From the NCBI GenBank assembly GCA_015179125.1, contig WHVA01000459.1, forward strand, positions 28,503 to 92,502: 64,000 bases of DNA, read 5' to 3'. The DNA is from Gautieria morchelliformis (lineage: Eukaryota > Basidiomycota > Agaricomycetes > Gomphales > Gomphaceae). The position numbers and the translations under genes are program-made. Of this stretch, positions 1,445 to 52,954 are shown one piece after another. Each line of letters begins with the position of its first letter. Position 1 is the first letter of the stretch. The notes under the pieces are model-generated. The model was given only the letters and a program-made list of their open reading frames with translations, made no database searches and was not told where the DNA came from.

Positions 1445-4102
1445 TCAGGTGGGCCCACTAAATGATACGTGCTTAGTTCTGTCAGACCAGCGCGGCCATT
1501 TGAAACACGTTTTTCTTGTGCCATCGGCTCTTGTGGGAACATTGCTAAATTCAGCAAGTTTCCTTCGGAACGCTACTATATTTGGACGCTCTTGTGGGCG
1601 GACACTCCAGCAGATTGTCAAGAAATACCAGAAGGGATCGTTTGGCGAGTATTTGATCTTCATTGATGGTCTCGCGAGGACATTTCCGTCGACTAGAACA
1701 TGTTTCAGAACCTGTGGATCGCTGAGACCTTGGTAAGGCTCTTCGAGAAGTATTAACTTGGAGAAAGTCATTGACTGAGAGCCGATGAATTTTATAGATG
1801 CCACGATGTTACCTACCTCGATGCAGGTGCTCGCAAATGCATATACATCGCTTTTTTCACTTTTTGATTGAACTGGTGAGTCAGCGATCAAGGTCTCAGG
1901 TGCCGACCAGCGAATGGAAGAGGGAAGGCTGGTGGTGATAGAACCTGTTTTTGCCATAATTAAGCCGACTACTTGGAAAAGGCCATAATTTATAAGCCTC
2001 GGCGTTCCCGTATCGGTGACCATAATATGTGCCTATAGGCTTCGTTTTGCGTGGGTTGTGCGTGACTTTGTAAACGACTCACGCATCTAATGTCCCCATG
2101 AACTATTCCTTTGGCGTGAAGATATAAAACTCCATCCGCGATCTCCTGAAGCTTGAGACAACGATAAATGAAGGTGCAGTCGTAAATGATCTGGAAGGTC
2201 ATACCATGTGTAGAGTGTTGATGTCATTATGCGCCTTGACATATTCCAGCACAGTCCCATTGTGGTATAAGGGCCAGGCCATGCCTACGGCGCTGTGCTC
2301 CAAGACTAACCCGTAGAATGGGCTGATATTCTTGTGAGACAGCGCCTGCCACCGTAGAAACTCGCGATAAAGAGGCTGGTTGGCTATGGGTCGGCGATAA
2401 AACTAGCTGGAGTTGAAAATATATCGTACTTTCACAAATAGATCATATGGTTTGCCTGGTGTTCGCAAGAATCTGATCACAACCTGCAGTCTGGCGTAAA
2501 TTGTTTCCATTCTGGATAAAACATACACTCACTTGAATTTCACCGGTCTTCGTGTTATATACGCCCTCCACATCAGAGTTTAAGTTATCTGCGAGGGACA
2601 GACTACCCGTCTTGAGCACAGCACTCGAAATATCTACACTTGGCTCCGAATTATCTTTTTGCCCAGGAGTCTCGCGAATGGCTTCCGGGTATGCTGACGT
2701 TGTCGACAAAGGTATGAGTGGATCTCGACTTAGTTTTTCTTCTTGAGATGGTGACATCTCGTTTAATAATTTGAAGATTTCATAGGCATGTCCGCGGACA
2801 TTTGGGTTCTGGTGTTGGCGTAGTAGGTCGAATATTGTCTTCTTCTTGATACAAAGCTCGACGAATGGTGCGGACCCCCAGTAAAAACAGTGGATGATAC
2901 GTTTCAATACCTATGTCAAGTACGTATGCACATCGTAATGCCTTGGAAATATCACACCTGGAACTCACCTTGACACTCTCGTCATAATTTTTCCGCAACG
3001 ATGACGTGGGGCTGATTAAGTCATCTACAGCATTCAATATCGAGCCCAGTCCGTCATTTCCACTGGATAAATCACGATGTCGTCAATGATGAAAGTTGTT
3101 TAGATCAGGAGAGTCACCTATGAAACGTCATCATAGCCACCTCTTCTTTCTCTCGAAGAAGTATAGATTTAGATTGCTCATGTTTACTCTCATGTTCGTG
3201 TTTGCTCTCAGGCTGGTCTTCGCTAAGCAAGGCAATGAGATTGGTCCTTAGTAAGTCAAATATTACTCACTGCAAGGATTCTTTTATGGTCGACAACCTT
3301 GTTTTCTTATGGTTTACGCTAAGCAAGGCAATGAGATTGGTCCTTAGTAACTCAAATATTACTCACTGCAAGGCTTTTATGTTCTGACGTTTCTGTTTCC
3401 TCTGTTCTGGCCTAGGCAAGGCAATGAGATTGGTCCTTAGTAACTCAAATATTACTCACTTCAAGCTTTCTTTTCTGTTCTCCCGTCTCAGGAGTAGCTC
3501 GGGGGTGAATAGTTCCGGAATGATCACAGGAGCTGGCCGCTCCTGCAAGGAATCTGGAAAAATAACAGATCTGGATACTGTTGATGAAGAGCCCGCTTTG
3601 TGTGTCCCAGATGGTTGAACAGAATTAATCAGGACCCGAGATAGAGAGCGTGCGTCGGACGAGATCTCGCGTGCGACAGGATTTCCGCCACCTTCATATT
3701 GCTCTAAGCTGCCTAGAAATTGCGCCTGCGACGCACAGAAGATTTTGAATTCAGAGGATACATGCGAAAGACAACTCTTCATCAATTTAAGAGTCTAATG
3801 CGATAAGTGTGTTATTATCATTGGTTTGTTTATAAGGCACTGGCAGAACTTACATGCAAAATTTCGAGGGGTTCATATGAATATGGGTGCCTAAGTCGTC
3901 GGACCATTACCCTTTGTATTTCCTTCCGCGCCTCCCTGACAACAAAGTAAGACTCAGCTTTGACCGGGCGTGGGTGAGATGCATTTACTAACTCGATGTA
4001 TGTTAGCCTAGATATCTCGGCCACCTGAGTGGAGTCTGGTGGCTTTGCTGGATCGATTGCAGCACGTACGAGCAGTTTTATCGCCTCGATATCAACAAGC
4101 AT
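1445..4102 (-). CDS. Tyrosine-kinase-like (TKL) kinase-domain protein, probable pseudokinase
   Basis: A many-exon minus-strand gene starting at 4102 (MLVDIEAIKLLVRA). The N-terminal half is helical and unrecognised. A central low-complexity basic part is encoded by tiny exons between three almost identical introns. The C-terminal half is a kinase domain: DLFVK (near 2420), FLRWQALSHKNISPFYGL (about 2310-2360), EIADGVLYLHAKGIVHGDIR (about 2080-2150), an activation segment ending SSIRWSAPETL (about 1880-1920), KSDVYAFASTCIE and a final WSVRPQERPNI block (about 1575-1620). This is the fungal TKL pattern (HGD in place of HRD). After removal of the intron following HGDIRC, the catalytic-loop Asn position reads His and the DFG triplet reads NYG, so both metal-binding positions are changed. 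I infer a pseudokinase or a decaying kinase. The exon borders in 2360-2460 are not resolved. The gene ends in a short tail after the domain. Confidence 0.65.
3223..3270 (-). repeat. 48-bp intron, copy 1 of a three-copy intron repeat
   Basis: On the minus strand this is a canonical intron: GTGAGTAATATTTGACTTAC at the start, TTACTAAG as branch region, TTGCTTAG at the end. It differs from copy 2 at one base. It lies in phase 2; if retained, the codon after the junction becomes TGA, so splicing is needed for the frame to continue. Confidence 0.8.
3319..3366 (-). repeat. 48-bp intron, copy 2 of a three-copy intron repeat
   Basis: Same 48-bp GT-AG intron, phase 2, one base different from copy 1 (G for C in the TTGAGTTAC stretch) and one base different from copy 3 (TTGCTTAG against TTGCCTAG). 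A 48-nt exon (3271-3318) separates it from copy 1. Confidence 0.8.
3412..3459 (-). repeat. 48-bp intron, copy 3 of a three-copy intron repeat
   Basis: Same 48-bp intron, phase 2, ending TTGCCTAG. A 45-nt exon (3367-3411) separates it from copy 2. The short exons end in related sequences (CATAAAAGCCTTGCA and CATAAAAGAATCCTTGCA), so the repeat reaches a little into the coding sequence. Confidence 0.8.
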
Positions 4103-15900: not shown

Positions 15901-18319
15901 AATAGGTGTATGGACCCAGGTAAGCGCCATGCCCAGTGCTATGGCTTTGATAGACGAGTTCTGACATGAGTCAATGAATTCCAGGATAATGATACTACAG
16001 CATTCGTGACAGATACCCGCAATTTTCTAGCTGCATTTGGGAATACAATCTCTCAGAGTGCTCCCCATCTCTATTTTCGGCACTCCCGTTTGCACCTGAA
16101 AGGTCGAAAGTATCTGAGACTTACCTCCCACGATTTCCACGACTACTGAGCATCGAGACCGGGAAAGCGACGAACTGGCCACCAATTCAATCCGTTCTGG
16201 AAGGCCACACCGGCGTGGTCACGTCGGTGGCATTCTCGCATGACGGCAAGCGCATCGTCTCCGGGTCTGGTGACAAGACGATCCGTGTGTGGAATGCAGA
16301 GACCGGGGAGGCCATTTCAGCACCATTCGAAGGCCACACCGCCGGGGTTACGTCGGTGGCATTCTCGCAGGACGGCAAGCGCATCTTCTCTGAGTCTGAT
16401 GACAAGACGATCCGTGTGTGGAATGCAGACACCGGGGAGCTCATTTCAGCACCATTCGAAGCCCACGCCGGCTCATTCAAGTGTGTGGCGTGCTCGCACG
16501 ATGGCAAGCGCATCGTCTCCGTATCTGATGACCAGACGTTCCGTGTGTGGAATGCAGAGACCGGGGAGCTCATTTCAGCACCATTCGAAGGCCAAGCCGA
16601 CAGCGTCTTGTCGGTGGCGTTCTCGCACGATGGCAAGCGCATTGTCTCCGGGTTTTCAGGGTACACGATCTGTGTGTGGAATGCAGACACCGGGGAGCTC
16701 GTTTCAGAATTATTCGGAGGCCACACCGACTGGGTCTGGTCGGTGGCGTTCTCGCATGACGGCAAGCACATCGTCTCGGGGTCTCGTGACAAGACGATCT
16801 GTGTGTGGAATGCAGACACCGGGGAGCTCATTTCAGCACCATTCAAAGGCCACACCAGCAGGGTCAGCTCGGTGGCGTTCTCGCATGACGGCAAGCGCAT
16901 CGTCTCCGGGTCTTTTGACAAGACGATCCGTTTGTGGAATGCAGACACCGGGGAGCTCATTTCAGCACCATTCGAAGGCCACACCGAATTGGTCATTTCG
17001 GTGGCGTTCTCGCACGACGGCAAGCGTATCGTCTCCGGGTCTTTAGACAAGACGATCCGTATATGGAATGCAGACACCGCGGAGGTCATTTCAGCACCAT
17101 TCGAAGGCCATGCCTCCTGGGTCACGTCGGTGGCGTTCTCGTACGATGGCAAGCGCATCGTCTCCGGGTCTGAAGACAAGGCGATCCGTGTGTGGAATGC
17201 AGACACCGGGGAGCTCATTTCAGCACCATTCGGAGGCGACATCGACTGGAACAGGATGATGACGTTCTCACCTGAAAGCCACTCCTCCTGGGTCAGGTGG
17301 GTGGCGTTCTCACATGATGGTAAGCGCATCGTCTCCGGCTCTGAAGACAAGGCGATCCTTGTGTGGAATGCAGACACCGGGGAGCTCATTTCAGCACCAT
17401 TCGAAGGCCACACCGAATTGGTCATCTCGGTGGCGTTCTCGCACGACGACAAGCGCATCGTCTCCGGGTCTGAAGACAAGACGATCCGTGTGTGGAATGC
17501 AGACACGGGGGAGGTCGTTTCAGGACCATTCGAAGGCCACACCGACGGGGTCAAGTCGGTGGCATTCTCGCTGGACGGCAAGCGCATCGTCTCTGGGTCT
17601 GAAGACACCACGATCCGTGTGTGGAATGCAGACACCGGGGAGCTCATTTCAGCACCATTTGAAGGCCACACCTCTTGGGTCAGGTCGGTGGTGTTCTCGC
17701 AGGACGGCAAGCGCATCGTCTCCGGGTCTGATGACAAGACGATCCGTGTGTGGGATGCACACACCGGGGAGCTAATTTCAGCACCATTCGAAGGCCACAC
17801 CTCCTGGGTCAGCTCGGTGGCGTTCTCGCATGACGGCAAGCGCATCGTCTCCGGGTCTGGAGACCAAACGATTCGTTTGTGGAATGCAGACACCCGGGAG
17901 CTCATTTCAACACCATTTGAAGGCCACACCGGCGAGGTCATGTCGGTGGCGTTCTCGCACGACGGCAAGCGCATCGTCTCAGGGTCTGAAGACCACACCG
18001 TCCGTGTGTGGAATGCAGACACCGGACCATTCGCAGGTCAGGCACCTAGTCAGTAGCTGTTGCCTTAATTTGTTGGAACATGACGAAACCTGCTAATATC
18101 CTTTGCACAGCTACAGGGCCTTTTCGACATGACTCACGGCTAGAAAATGGCTGGTTACTTAACTCGCCCTCAGAGCTTTTATTCTGGGTTCCACCCTGGT
18201 CTCAGCCAGGTTTGTGGTGGCCGGCGAATACCGCCGTTATCGTGAAGGGGTCCACAAAGGTTGATATGAGCCGGTTTGAGCATGGGACTTCGTGGACACA
18301 ATGCAGAGGGGCAGCCTGA
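12915..18319 (+). pseudogene. C2-NACHT-WD40 STAND (NLR-like, HET-E type) gene, copy A, with one frameshift
   Basis: Start ATG at 12915 (16-nt exon MRAQC), then exons 13079-13226 and 13280 onward form a C2-like domain (GKYYVKLFV, VYRHHRISSDEYIGG). A helical N-terminal module follows (about 13500-14330; NNTVIPTMDVWDPLLDKI, ECSYFIRDYAKNKNF). The NACHT NTPase is in the 14381-15964 exon: P-loop DVAGAGKSAIA (Asp at the usual first Gly), Walker B MVIDALDES, LRLLITSR. Then a helical linker, 14 WD40 repeats (16203-18045) and, after an intron with TGCTAATATCC, a C-terminal module (ENGWLLNSPSELLFWVPPWS) ending at 18319. Such proteins are cytosolic signal-transducing NTPases; in Podospora the relatives HET-E and HET-D trigger incompatibility. 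Against copy B, one base is missing at about 16072-16080, moving the linker out of frame with the WD40 array, so the gene as read encodes the NACHT part and the WD40 part separately. It could be a true null allele, a sequencing slip, or an unrecognised intron. Confidence 0.8.
16203..18045 (+). repeat. WD40 array A: 14 near-identical 129-bp repeats
   Basis: Each unit encodes 43 residues on the pattern [15 protein letters not shown]-x-D-x-TIRVWNADTG, then [11 protein letters not shown]-x-x-V-x. Fourteen units can be counted; the eighth is lengthened by about 14 residues (an extra segment around 17232-17290 with NRMMTFSPESHSS). Differences between units are concentrated at a few loop positions. 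Because 129 is a multiple of three, two other frames and one antisense frame also stay open over long stretches. Confidence 0.92.
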
Positions 18320-32600: not shown

Positions 32601-34342
32601 TGGAGCCAGGTAAGCGCCACGCCCAAGTGCTATGGCTTTCGTAGACGAGTTCTGACATGACTCTAATGAACTTTAGAATATTGATACTACAGCATTTGTG
32701 ACGGATACCCGCAATTTTCTAGCTGCATTTGGGAATGTACTCTCTCAGAGTGCTCCCCATCTCTATTTGTCGGCATTGCCGTTTGCCCCTGAAAGGTCGA
32801 AACTATCTGAGACTTACCTCCCACGATTTCCACGACTACTCAGCATCGAGACAGGGAAAGCGACGAACTGGCCCCCAATTCAATCCGTTCTGGAAGGTCA
32901 CACCGACGGGGTCACTTCGGTGGCATTCTCGCAGGACGGCAAGCGCATCGTCTCCGGGTCTCGCGACAAGACGATCCGTGTGTGGAATGCAGACACCGGG
33001 GAGGTCATTTCAGCACCATTTGAAGGCCACACTGGCGAGGTCATGTCGGTGGCATTCTCGCATGACGGCAAGCGCATCATCTCAGGGTCTGATGACAAGA
33101 CAATCCGTGTGTGGAATGCAGACACCGGGGAGGTAAATTCCGCACCATTCGAAGGTCACACCGACGAAGTCACGTCCGTGGCATTCTCGCATGATGGCAA
33201 GCGCATCATCTCCGGGTCTTATGACACCACGATCGGTATGTGGAATGCAGACACCGGGGAGGTCATTTCAGCACCATTCGAAGGCCATACCGACAAGGTC
33301 ACGTCGGTGGCGTTCTCGCACGACGGCAAGCGGATCGTCTCCGGGTTTGTTGACAAGACGATCCGTGTGTGGAATGCAGACACCGGGGAGGTCATTTCAG
33401 CACCATTTGAAGGCCACACTTGCCGGGTCACGTCGGTGGCGTTCTCGCATGACGGCAAGCGCATTGTCTCCGGGTCTGCAGACAACACGATCCGTGTGTG
33501 GAATGCAGGCACTGGGGAGGTCATTTCAGCACCATTCGAAGGCCACACCGAATGGGTCACGTCGGTGGCGTTCTCGCATGACGGCAAGCGCATCGTATCG
33601 GGGTGTTATGACAGGATGATCCGTGTGTGGAATGCAGACACCGGAGAGGTCATTTCAGCACCATTTGAAGGCCACGCCTACGGCGTCACGTCGGTAGCGT
33701 TCTCGCACAACGGCAAGCGCATTGTCTCCGGGTCTGCGGACAACACGATCCGCGTGTGGAATGCAGACACCAGGGAGGTCATTCCAGCGCCATTCGAAGG
33801 CCACACCGAATCGGTCAGGTCGGTGGCATTCTCCCACGATGGCAAGCGTGTCGTCTCCGGGTCTTTTGACAACACGATCCGTGTCTGGAATGCAGAGACC
33901 GGGGAGCTCATTTCAGCACCATTTGAAGGCCACACCCACTGGGTCACGTCGGTGGCATTCTCGCACGATGGCAAGCGCATTGTCTCCGGGTCTTATGACA
34001 ACACGATCCGCGTGTGGAATGGAGACACCGGGGAGGTCATTTCAGCACCATTCGCAGGTCAGGCACCCAGTCAGTAGCTGTTACCTTGATTTGTGTGAAC
34101 ATTATGAACCTGCTAATATCCTTTGCACGGCTACAGGGCCTGAGTTTCGACATGACTCACGGCTAGAAAATGGCTGGTTACTCAACTCGCCCTCAGAACT
34201 TTTATTCTGGGTTCCACCCTGGTCTCAGGTAGGTTTGTGGTGGCCGGCAAATACCACTGTTATTGCAAAGAGGTCCACAAAGCTTGATCTCAGCCGGTTT
34301 GAGCATGGGACTTCATGGATGCAATGCAGAGGGGTGGCATGA
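29605..34342 (+). pseudogene. C2-NACHT-WD40 STAND (NLR-like) gene, copy B, with one frameshift
   Basis: Same architecture and intron positions as the 12.9-kb copy: exon 1 MTRRAQC (29605), C2-like domain (PGKYYVKLFVNE, VYRHHRIGSDEYIGG), helical N-module, NACHT in 31073-32329 (DVAGAGKSAIAHEVARRY, MVIDALDES, IRLLITSR), linker 32391-32600, WD40 array 32895-34060, C-terminal module to 34342 (ENGWLLNSPSELLFWVPPWS). Here the lesion is different: two bases are missing at about 32321-32340 just after LSSLRVMR, giving an immediate TGA, while the linker-WD40 junction that is broken in copy A is intact. The C-terminal linker plus WD40 plus end module forms one long frame from 32698. Could be a pseudogene or could make only a WD40 product. 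Confidence 0.8.
32895..34060 (+). repeat. WD40 array B: nine near-identical 129-bp repeats
   Basis: Nine 43-residue units on the same pattern as array A. Variable residues sit at the same places (the residue after SGS: R, D, Y, V in a GF context, A, Y in a GC context, A, F, Y; the residue two further on: K, K, T, K, N, R, N, N, N). Most units carry [11 protein letters not shown], whereas array A mostly has [11 protein letters not shown]. Confidence 0.9.
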
Positions 34343-35691
34343 GTTTCCCAGTGGAAACACTCATTGACACATGAATGTTGCATCTCCAGCTATCATAGTG
34401 ATTTGACTTCCCATATTGTACATGCAGTAATCCTCCAATAGTCTATCTTGGACACAGTCTGTCCTGTAGTGCATCTACCATAGCTAACAATACACACAAG
34501 GTCATCATAAATGGGTAACAGGGTTTGGTATGTAGAGTACAAACTATGCTCTCCTCTGACCCAGATTAGCTGCATGGCACTCATCATGATGGTGTGATCC
34601 ATGAGTTCATGTGTCGGCCTGTAGCAAAGTGAATTCTAATCATGTGTGTAGCTGGGTTGATGTAATTAAACTAAGGTCACTGTTGAACTCTGAGCATCTC
34701 TTGTAGACATATTGCTAACTACTCAACTACGCTGAGGTTGACATATCTGATGATGAGCCATATGCACTGAGCAAATCTTACAGCCATCAATATCTCCACA
34801 TCAACCAGCTAACACACGTCTGCAGGTGTGAGCCAATGAGGAGCAAGTCAACCCTTGGATCAATTCCAACAAGGACAAGATCATGTTGCAGGTCCCGGAG
34901 GGTGTGCAACCCACAACATTCTCCCACCATGATGTGATTGTGTCAGATGTGTCAGAGGCTGAGAAGCCTTGAGCACAAGGACATGGCATGCTATATACCA
35001 CCACCCATGAATCCGATGCTTTAGCAGCGGACTATGAGGAGGTTAATCAAAAAGGTCATGTGATGCAGCATATATAAGTATGTAATATATATTATAAGAG
35101 TATTAATAACAACATATAGGAATATATAGTAGTATTTATAAGGAGAATACATGTTAAGAAGATTTTGTATATATTTAAACATCTTGGATATATATATATA
35201 TATATGAGAGAGTATTAGACTACAAGATAGAGTAATAGATACTTGGACAGATACTTCTAACAGATATGAGTAGGAGTATTAGTATGAATAGTTATAATGA
35301 GAGAGTATTAGACTACAATATGAAGTAATAGTACTTGGATAGATATTTGCAATATATATGAGAAGGAGTATTAATATGAATAGGTATAATGATATAGTGT
35401 ATATTAAAAGTTGGTAGAAAAAATAAGAAGACACATAAAAATAAGAAGGGGTGTTCTCGTCGGTGGAGCCACCACTCGGGAGGGACAAAAGTAGGATTAT
35501 TTATATCCCAATAAAATTGCCATATACTTTCAGGGTCTTCTTTTCTATAATCTGAGAATAAAATGAGTGAAGCTACATGTAATAAAACATTGTGAGCATC
35601 TGTCTTAGTATGCCTGACAGTAATCGTGACCCCCTAATGGGATGTGTACAGTGCAGATGTAAGTAGCAATGGAATAAATTCATATTAAGCC
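34343..35691. other. Non-coding, AT-rich, with a 93-bp tandem duplication
   Basis: First 540 bp are the 3' flank shared with copies A and C. From 35040 on the sequence is very AT-rich with a TATATATATATA run near 35195. Two 93-bp units, 35206-35298 and 35299-35390, start GAGAGAGTATTAGACTACAA and are tandem copies. No gene seen. Confidence 0.6.
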
Positions 35692-39866: not shown

Positions 39867-41182
39867 CACGCGCATCGTCTCCGGGTCTTATGACAAGACG
39901 ATCCGTGTGTGGAATGCAGAGACCGGGGAGGTCGCTTCAGCACCATTCGAAGGCCACACCCACTTGGTTATGTCAGTGGCGTTCTCGCACGGTGGCAAGC
40001 GCATCGTCTCAGGCTCTGAAGACAAGATGATCTGTGTGTGGAATGCAGACATCGAGGAGCTCATTTCAGCACCATTCCAAGGTGACACCTCCTTGGTCAG
40101 GACGGTGATGGTCGCACGTGAAGGCCACAGCTCTCCTTGGTCAGGCCGGTGGCGTTCTCGCATGACGGCAAGCGGATCGTCTCTGGGTCTCATGACGACA
40201 CGGTCCATGTGTGGAATGTAGACACTGGAGAGCTCAGTTTGGCACCATTCGAAGGTCACACCTCCTGGGTTACGTTGGTGGCGTTCTTGCATGATGACAA
40301 GCGCATTGTCTCCGGGTCTCATGACAAGACGATCCGTGTGTGGAATGCAGAGGTCGGGGAGCTTGTTTCAGGACCATTCGAAGGCCACACCGGCGATGTC
40401 ACGTCGGTGGCGTTCTCGCAGGATGGCAAGCGCATCGTCTCCGGGTCTGCAGACAAGATGATCCGTGTGTGGAATGCAGAGACCGGGGAGCTCGTTTCAG
40501 CACCATTTGAAGGCCACACCGACTGGGTCATGTCGGTGGTGTTCTCACAGGATGGCAAGCGCATTGTCTCCGGGTCTGATGACAAGACGATCCATGTGTG
40601 GAATGCAGGCACCGGGGAGCTAATTTCACCACCATTCGAAGGCCACACCTCCTGGGTCAGCTCAGTGGCGTTCTCGCATGACGGCAAGTGCATCGTCCCC
40701 GGGTCTGGAGACCAAACGATTCGTGTGTGGAATGCAGACACCGGGGAGCTCATTTCAACAGCATTTGAAGGCCACACCGGCGAGGTCATGTCGGTGGCGT
40801 TCTCACACGACGGCAAGCGCATTGTCTCCGGGTCTGAAGACAAGACGATCCGTGTGTGGAATGCAGACACCAGGGAGGTCATTTCAGCACCATTCGCAGG
40901 TCAGGCACCTAGTCAGTAGCTGTTGCCTTAATTTGTCGGAACATGATGAAACCTGCTAATATCCTTTGCACAGCTACAGGGCCTTTTCGACATGACTCAC
41001 GGCTAGAAAATGGCTGGATACTCAACTCGCCCTCAGAGCTTTTATTCTGGGTTCCACCCTGGTCTCAGGTAGGTTTGTGGCGGCCTGCAAATACTGCTGT
41101 TATCACAAAGGGGTCCACAAAGCTTGATCTCAGCCGGTTTGAGCATGGGACTTTGTGGACACAATGCAGAGGGGCAGCCTGA
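39867..41182 (+). pseudogene. WD40 and C-terminal part of a third NACHT-WD40 gene (copy C), 5' truncated
   Basis: Begins inside a WD40 unit ([18 protein letters not shown]) directly at the Copia remnant. Nine units or parts of units can be read; the second and third are separated by an extended segment ([18 protein letters not shown]) like the one in unit eight of array A, and a missing base near 40136 shifts the frame there. The last six units run in frame to 40919, then the same 3' intron and C-terminal module as in the other copies (ENGWILNSPSELLFWVPPWS) end at 41182. No C2, NACHT or linker parts are present. Confidence 0.8.
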
Positions 41183-50752: not shown

Positions 50753-52954
50753 CTATAAAGTATACGAGGTCAGCTTCACAGGACGGGATATAAACACAAC
50801 CCCACGCAACGCACCATCGAAAATCAGCCTCTGCGCAATCTCCGTCGCCGCATAGCTCGGCTTCCCGTCGACCTGCCACATGATGTACCTGGCCCCTGCA
50901 TCGTTCGGGTCGCCGAGGTGTTCGAAGCCTGTGTGTGGGGGGGGGCGGGAAGGGGAGGGAAGGGAAGGGAGGGGAGGGGAAGGGTCAGCAACGGATGGGG
51001 AGGCCAAATGGACATGACATGACATGGCTTACCGAAGGACACGAACTCGGTGTGCCTGCATACGCGCGCTCCGGCACGGGCATCAGCGCCAACACTGCCT
51101 GCTGTCTACCAAAACAAACACATCAGCAATCCCTCCACACCCTCACCCCCCCGCCCTCACAACCTGAGCTCCGAGCCGAAAGAAAATTCCGGTGAAAACA
51201 CTCACAACGCACTCCCCCTGATACATATTCTGCCGCGTCAACCCCACATCAAAAAATGACGCCGCCCCCATCCCGTTGGGGGACACATAATCATGCGCAA
51301 AGGGCGCGAACTGCGAGACCTTCCCACCATCGCCGAGCTTGTTCTTCTGCACCTCGAAGACGTTGATCTCGGGGGCGCCACGGCGAACGGAGGGGGAGGG
51401 CCGGGGGTGGGAGGGTGCGGAGGCAGGGCAGGTGCAGGCGCTAAGAGCGGTGAGGGCGAGGTGAGGCGCGAGGGGGCAGGTCAGCATGGGAGGGACGGGG
51501 CAGGGAGCAAGGACTTACGACAGCTGCTGCCCCAGCAACCAGCTCAGCTCAAAGTTATACCGGCTCCTTCCCCAGTCCGTGTGGCAGACTCATGTAGTGT
51601 TGCTGCTCGACCCGGGGAAGGACACGGAGACTGCAGGTGAGGAGCGTGAGCATGTGAGCACCGCGAGGCGAGGGGAGAACGGCGGAGGGGGAAGAGATAC
51701 AGATACACACCCTCAATATACCCGCCTGTGAAGCAGAGCTTGTTCCAGCTCTGGAGCATGCCGGACTTGTAGCTGAGCCCGTGGTTGCTCATGGGATCGG
51801 CCTGCTCGATGAGGATGCGGAGGCTCCCGTTCGTTGTCGTCACCTGCCCTGCGGGAACGTGAGTACAGGCACGTGAATAGTGTTTTCCCGGCCCGGCTTG
51901 GGCTCAAAAGCCCCGGTCACGGCTCGGCCTGAGACGGCTCGGGCTTCACAAAACCCAGGCCGGGCTTTTTTTTACGGCTCAGGCCCGGCTCCGGCTCGGC
52001 TCGGCTTTGGCCCCGGCTCGCTGGAGCATGGCTGCAGGGTGAAAAACCCCCCTTTCGTCCCTCATTTGAACTTTAAGCGCCTTATCTAAGTTTCCCACGT
52101 GTGGTGCCGGCGCGCTGTGCCTGGGTGCCGTCAAGCCGCCTAGGGCGGCTTCACCCATACCATCTAGGCGCTCAAGAGCCGCGGCTTCACGGCTCGGCCC
52201 AGGCTTGCCAAATCCTGAGCCGGGCTTTTTGGGATGGCCTGGAGACGGCTACGGCCCGGCTCGGCTCGGCCTGTAAGGGCTCGGCTCCGGCTTCGTCGCG
52301 GCCTAAGCCGGGCCCAGGAAAACACTACACGTGAAGTACAGGCTCACACGCACCAGGGTCATACCACTCCATGTCCTGCGTCACGTGGTACCACAGATTG
52401 ACGGCCTCCCAGAAGGGGTCGTCGCCTGGGTAAAATGAGCGGCCCTCCGTGTTTGACTCGTCCGAAAACACCAGCTCATACTCCTTCGCATCCCACCCCG
52501 TGTGCGTCTTGACCACGTCTGGGGTGTCCTTGTTGAGCATGACGGGGAAGTGCAGCAAGTCCGCGACCTGGCCCGTCGCGTTGACCTGCATGTTGCTGCC
52601 GATGGCGAGGTTGCGGGCATTGGAGTGGAAGAAGGTGACGATGGGGTACACGGTGAAGAGGCTGATGACGGACGCGACGACGAGCATATTTGCGAGGCCG
52701 CAGGCGTTGAGGTGGGCGACGGCGCGCTCGTCATGAGCGAGAGTCCCTGGGTTGTGGAGGGCGTCATCCGCGTCGGGCGGGCTGGACTGGTCCAAGGTCG
52801 GGTTGTACACGTAGGGCGGGAACACGCCGCCACCGCCGCCCTTCTCGTGAGAGGGCGAGTGGGTAATTGGAGTCGGAGGGGGCGCTGAAGAGGGACGGGG
52901 TGGCGCTGGAGGCAACGCTGGAGTGGGAGAAGGGCATGGGGGGCGGGGGCACAA
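50753..52954 (-). pseudogene. KRE6: KRE6/SKN1-type beta-glucan synthesis protein (GH16), degenerate
   Basis: The minus strand encodes a KRE6-type layout: N-terminal cytosolic part with GVFPPYVYNPTLD, a membrane helix (GLANMLVVASVISLFTVYPI), NATGQVADL, ELVFSDESNTEGRSFYPGDD, WEAVNLWYHVTQDMEWYDP, then [67 protein letters not shown] and YIMWQVDGKPSYAATE. KRE6 proteins help to make beta-1,6-glucan in the secretory pathway. Faults: the N-terminal frame shifts in the G-run near 52835; the segment with the usual GYWPG and MGNL motifs is absent and a TGA stands after GSSSNTT (about 51595); the GH16 active-site box EIDxxE reads EINVFE; and the ending after WQVDG is short. The exon borders are otherwise plausible. 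I call a pseudogene, but splicing not seen by me could rescue part of it. Confidence 0.65.
51878..52327. mobile_element. hAT-type non-autonomous element (MITE), 450 bp
   Basis: Ends TAGTGTTTTCC... and ...GGAAAACACTA are perfect inverted repeats over 11 bp and continue imperfectly to about 25 bp (CGGCCCGGCTTGGG and its counterpart). It is flanked by an exact 8-bp target duplication CACGTGAA (51870-51877 and 52328-52335). TIR start TAGNG and 8-bp duplication are hAT hallmarks. The interior is GC-rich with repeated GGCTCGG. It sits in an intron of the KRE6-like gene. Confidence 0.88.

Follow-up and report, generated by a model that had tools for sequence, protein, structure and literature searches.

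How did a gene come to carry what seems to be one tiny 48-base intron three times in succession? Few recent intron gains show how they came about. In the window (the whole stretch of DNA analysed, 64,000 nucleotides), a kinase-like gene contains such an array; with three copies, two single-base steps and a frame-safe unit, it could allow strains or sister species to separate DNA duplication from intron-only copying. Any change in copy number would alter the length of a linker in the kinase-like protein by 15-16 residues per step.

Anatomy of the intron array

The host gene was modelled by hand, and the intron copies were numbered in transcript order on the minus strand. The features, in that order, are as follows.

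1500-4102, minus strand: host gene (hand model), with an N-terminal region, the array linker and a protein kinase domain; its start, 4102, was guessed, and its 3' end lies near or below 1500
3460-3794, minus strand: exon A, a coding exon that precedes the array, third minus frame open
3459-3412, minus strand: putative intron copy 1, 48 bp, phase 2, GTGAGT...CCTAG
3367-3411, minus strand: exon B, 45 nt, coding for PEQRKQKRQNIKAL plus split codons
3366-3319, minus strand: putative intron copy 2, 48 bp, phase 2, GTGAGT...CTTAG
3271-3318, minus strand: exon C, 48 nt, coding for VNHKKTRLSTIKESL plus split codons
3270-3223, minus strand: putative intron copy 3, 48 bp, phase 2, GTGAGT...CTTAG, C at position 16
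3118-3222, minus strand: exon D, on the downstream side of the array; a 55-nt intron comes next (3117-3063)

The initial annotation had described three 48-bp, phase-2 introns with GT-AG borders, neighbouring copies one base apart, and intervening exons divisible by three. We found these coordinates, borders and phases as claimed, with the array on the minus strand; introns 1 and 2, like introns 2 and 3, were identical at 47/48 positions, introns 1 and 3 at 46/48, and the exons of 45 and 48 nt keep the reading frame. TRF, as an independent test, reported the array at 3214-3469 with 2.7 copies of period 93 (85% matches, score 336). Two bases of a split codon precede each intron copy, the donor junctions of introns 1, 2 and 3 read GAA/GT, GCA/GT and GCA/GT, and the corresponding acceptor junctions read TAG/GC, TAG/CG and TAG/CG. 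The immediate TGA predicted for retention of any copy was seen in the third minus frame (as AAG-TGA or CAG-TGA), and no open frame crosses 3214-3469 on either strand; retention would thus stop translation at once, and skipping one unit would keep the frame. ACTAAG occurs in all three copies, and we take its surroundings to be the branch region. The annotation had assigned the same branch region to every copy, which is right for ACTAAG and wrong for strict identity, since one of the two variable intron positions, position 16, falls in this region and is C in intron 3.

Five other hand-placed introns of the host gene are 49-59 nt long with GT...AG ends, and a length of 48 nt is therefore unremarkable in it. 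We infer that the three array segments are spliced introns and expect their splicing to be constitutive, because introns of 48 nt would be recognised by intron definition.

The array lies between conserved blocks of the host gene

The hand-spliced protein matched PF07714 (E=2.4e-24) and PF00069 (E=1e-16), with some junctions in the kinase part misplaced. C579 carries two weak paralogues, with E values of 1.1e-4 and 0.028. The first 59 residues of exon A aligned with one of the two (on stretch L024) with a score of 65, and the exons after exon D aligned with that same paralogue with a score of 102, scores that in each case were reached by 0/1000 shuffles. The array peptide had no counterpart in it (810 and 566 of 1000 shuffles scored at least as high). 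Because both sides match a distant paralogue and the array peptide does not, we place the array in a variable linker that joins two conserved blocks. The likeness of EEVAMMTF in exon D to DEVAKMTF in the paralogue was seen by eye only, as the tested alignment begins further downstream.

The members of the C579 pair (L024 3382-4309 and 5940-6874) stand in tandem, resemble the N-terminal part of the host gene, and sit downstream of what by eye is a Copia-like polyprotein frame; tblastn gave no kinase-domain match in the 9.9-kb C579 stretch. In the host gene itself, kinase motifs could be picked out by eye on the minus strand at window positions 2100-1990 (HGDIRC..HIMV and INYG). The catalytic Asn and the Asp of what we take to be the DFG motif seem to be replaced (NYG for DFG, by eye), and the product of the host gene may therefore be a pseudokinase.

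Full-length copies are confined to the array

A search of the whole genome for the 48-bp intron had been set beforehand as the test between an introner family and a local event. Across 122,073,039 bases in 1,113 contigs, the 48-mer was found with at most 3 mismatches at three places, all in the array, which is the outcome named for local duplication. The 70-bp unit likewise gave three places at E<=10, all in the array, in a DNA similarity search that scores only the best candidates and skips very common words. None of the three full-length copies (0/3) lay outside the host gene, and queries of 281 bp and 2.6 kb each returned a single DNA match genome-wide, with no sign of a second haplotype or a close paralogue. 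Because the full intron was found at one locus only, the introner-like insertion proposed in the initial annotation is unsupported and local duplication is favoured.

Half-length searches gave a slightly different picture. The 3' half of the intron occurred at three places in the genome with at most 3 mismatches, and the 5' half at six, namely the three array copies and one place each on C193, C475 and C970. These last three places match the 5' half exactly over 20 nt (stretches L018, L019 and L020, around 1501-1523) but lack the donor G, and beyond those 20 nt they have nothing obvious in common with the intron. They are alike one another around the match and for this reason probably represent one family. 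The 20-nt match is probably due to chance, with some uncertainty, as the estimate for this is about 1e-3.

Comparison of the flanks of the three introns revealed no target-site duplications (p=0.24, 0.65 and 0.76), and five other introns of the host gene, used as a control, gave flank-repeat p values of 0.23 to 0.97. Strong matches between L2 and R1 and between L3 and R2 were set aside in this test, since each is one exon overlapping itself. The missing flanking repeats say nothing against an introner, because fungal introners reportedly lack target-site duplications (PMC9860276, which gives such duplications for 49 of 130 families scored).

Exon ends appear to differ from introns in a codon-position-dependent manner

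The introns had been described as more alike than the exons, and comparison of each intron pair with its flanks agrees. Introns differed at 1/48 (copies 1 and 2), 2/48 (1 and 3) and 1/48 (2 and 3) positions. The right flanks of the same pairs differed at 14/24, 13/24 and 14/24 positions (Fisher p vs introns 8e-8, 2.5e-6 and 8e-8), and the left flanks at 5/21, 7/24 and 4/21 (p=0.0086, 0.005 and 0.027). For copies 2 and 3, the likeliest block of low divergence ran from donor -21 to acceptor +9, a block from -7 to +2 was almost as likely, and a block of exactly the intron was about 6 log units worse than the best. Because the best block extends into the exons on both sides, exon sequence would have been copied along in this pair, which has the look of a DNA duplication that included part of the exons. 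Pairs with copy 1 gave a near intron-only best block (donor -1 to acceptor -4), with blocks starting at donor -6 or -15 lying within one log unit of the best for copies 1 and 3.

Exon A shares about 22 nt at its 3' end with exons B and C. The shared exon ends noted initially are thus real, at a length closer to 21-22 nt with one 3-nt gap than to the 15-18 nt first given, and the similarity, said to be confined to exon ends and introns, continues in copies 2 and 3 for 2 to 9 nt beyond the acceptor. The 3' ends of the exons were alike beyond shuffles (p=0.001 for A-B; 0/5000 for A-C and for B-C), as were the whole exons for B-C (p=0.0005), C-D (p=0.004) and A-B (p=0.0075). Whole exons fell within the shuffle range for A-C (p=0.0575), A-D (0.16) and B-D (0.10), and the first 24 nt of the exons showed no clear homology (p=0.73 for B-C, 0.70 for B-D and 0.02 for C-D).

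The homologous exon ends comprise seven codons and two bases, with one codon absent from exon B, and the sole indel between the aligned ends is 3 nt. Among the three copies, variable columns numbered 2/48 in the introns, 0/7 at codon position 3 and 7/16 at codon positions 1-2. Positions 1-2 differed from silent sites with p=0.00024 and from position 3 with p=0.057, the latter being a small contrast chosen post hoc, and at face value the silent sites of the exon ends look as young as the introns. A young duplication followed by amino-acid change fits this pattern; therefore, the exons need not predate the introns. The initial argument that diverged exons speak against duplication is correct about the divergence and fails as an exclusion of duplication, because the homologous exon ends vary at codon positions 1-2 and not at position 3. 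In the best codon alignment of whole exons B and C, whose 5' halves could not be aligned with confidence, the contrast was absent, with 6 differences at position 1, 7 at position 2 and 5 at position 3. A coding minisatellite of 23-24 nt underlying the exons, an idea formed by eye, was rejected for want of a lag signal beyond shuffles: lags 23 and 24 were outside the ten best, and the best lag (28, z=2.5) was matched by 41% of shuffles.

Origin of the array

Intron size and gene content point to a fungus, probably a basidiomycete, as the source of the genome, and the closest published precedent is also from a basidiomycete. Intron gain by repeat expansion is described for the single-copy gene CNN00420 of Cryptococcus neoformans, where introns 3-5 are identical and one base from intron 2, and where the longer repeat takes in exon ends and the full intron (Sharpton 2008, PMC2395259). 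Near-identical introns in one gene and a repeat made of exon ends plus a whole intron recur in our array. The two differ in that the CNN00420 unit is about 107 nt, its splicing is backed by ESTs, and its copy number differs among strains, according to the same account, whereas about 70 nt are shared here, the exon bodies are hardly alike, and the array is known from sequence alone. Introners and introner-like elements also yield near-identical introns within one genome (PMC9860276, PMC4457414), but these sit in unrelated genes, and here three copies sit in one gene; similar introns in non-paralogous genes were not found in our search. Introner families are kept only if they have at least four introns (PMC9860276), and introner-like elements run to hundreds of copies (PMC4457414). 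Work cited in PMC4457414 credits such elements with as much as 90% of the recent gains of single introns in Zymoseptoria; the share of all other kinds of intron duplication, tandem duplication within a gene among them, is given as <1%. In the AGGT type of tandem genomic duplication, as outlined in PMC3443670, a new intron forms from exon sequence between two copies of AGGT. Our array resembles this system in that local tandem duplication increases intron number. In contrast to it, an existing intron would have been copied whole, AA or CA precedes GT at the donor junctions, and the introns are not bounded by duplicated AGGT.

We think it probable that the three introns arose by local DNA repeat expansion of a unit of exon end plus intron inside one gene, which is a known, seldom documented route of intron gain. 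We prefer repeat expansion because it needs no mobile element, accounts both for exon ends that are shared and for copies at one locus only, and is closely matched by a published case. Near-identical adjacent introns stand in one gene, with full copies found nowhere else, and the unit covers the exon end and the whole intron, clearly for copies 2 and 3 and more weakly for copy 1. The array peptide, which unlike the sequence to its left and right is unmatched in the paralogue compared, also speaks for this origin. The starting point would have been an ordinary short spliceosomal intron within a single gene. A unit of about 20 nt from the exon end and the entire 48-nt intron would then have been duplicated in tandem, probably twice and with partly different breakpoints, by slippage, unequal exchange or break repair. 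One clean tandem duplication is insufficient, because the exon starts are not clearly homologous and the right flanks differ at 13-14/24 positions. With a donor, a branch region and an acceptor of its own, every new copy could be spliced by intron definition, and each unit would add 15 or 16 amino acids to the linker that joins the N-terminal region to the kinase domain and that in exons B and C is rich in K, R and H by eye. Later, amino-acid changes would have gathered in the exon pieces as silent sites stayed young. The number and order of duplications and selection on the exons are likewise inferred.

Copying of the intron by itself within the gene, whether through conversion, through reverse splicing and recombination (transposition in cis) or through homogenization of old copies by intron-centred conversion, is the main rival, possible but in our view doubtful. 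It accords with the nearly intron-only block for pairs with copy 1 and with introns more identical than both flanks in 3/3 pairs, and a review deems some intron transposition likely genuine (PMC3443670). It sits poorly with the exon sequence shared on both sides by copies 2 and 3, and intron-only conversion does not predict exon-end third positions as conserved as the introns. Reverse splicing, moreover, is described in that review as shown solely under non-physiological conditions and believed very rare (PMC3443670). That one intron was copied precisely into two neighbouring homologous exon sites, by reverse splicing in cis or intron-centred conversion, as an early one-gene introner whose exons diversified under selection, strikes us as unlikely.

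Other readings are less probable than these. The segments might resemble introns by chance and belong to a tandem repeat of a decaying gene or to a non-coding minisatellite; kinase motifs that look degenerate by eye, with NYG for DFG, would suit such a gene, but the donor, branch-like and acceptor signals in 3/3 copies, their common phase, the exon lengths in multiples of three, the paralogue matches to exon A and the downstream exons, the kinase domain readable after hand splicing, and the five other hand-placed GT...AG introns of 49-59 nt make it improbable. Three insertions of an introner or introner-like family would account for the near-identity of the introns and could be linked to the exact 20-nt matches of the 5' half at dispersed places, yet no further full copy was found in 122 Mb, and those places, probably one family, lack the donor G and lose their likeness after 20 nt; we regard this origin as very improbable. 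Equally hard to credit is a constraint that acts on the introns as sequences, such as a functional RNA within every copy: it would explain introns more conserved than exons, but predicted folds differ among the copies and folding z values (0.22, -0.07 and -1.23 for introns 1, 2 and 3) are nothing unusual.

Other tandem repeats

We surveyed 278,404 bases with TRF (the window, the first 200 kb of C193, 9.9 kb of C579 and 4.5 kb of C514; about 0.2% of the genome) and obtained 16 rows of period 55-400, of which nine contained an intron-like string. Four of these nine had no open frame across them, namely the array described here, one row of a WD40 array and two rows on C193. We rejected the WD40-array row as a similar case, as it is one of three overlapping rows of which the other two are open, and the two C193 rows, as they adjoin retroelement-like reading frames by eye. 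Arrays of this kind thus made up 1/16 rows, a count that is partly a visual judgement.

Some of the other repeats are of interest in their own right. WD40-like arrays (by eye) at window positions 16200-18025, 32893-34058 and 40119-40900 consist of 129-bp (43-aa) units with 82-86% matches and an open frame across each, and are candidates for fast repeat exchange. An AT-rich 92-bp tandem repeat at window positions 35199-35392 has 2.1 copies and no open frame across it. On C193, a 109-bp repeat at 51548-51902 (L031 1548-1902) has 3.3 copies with 100% matches and adjoins a frame that is Copia-like by eye.
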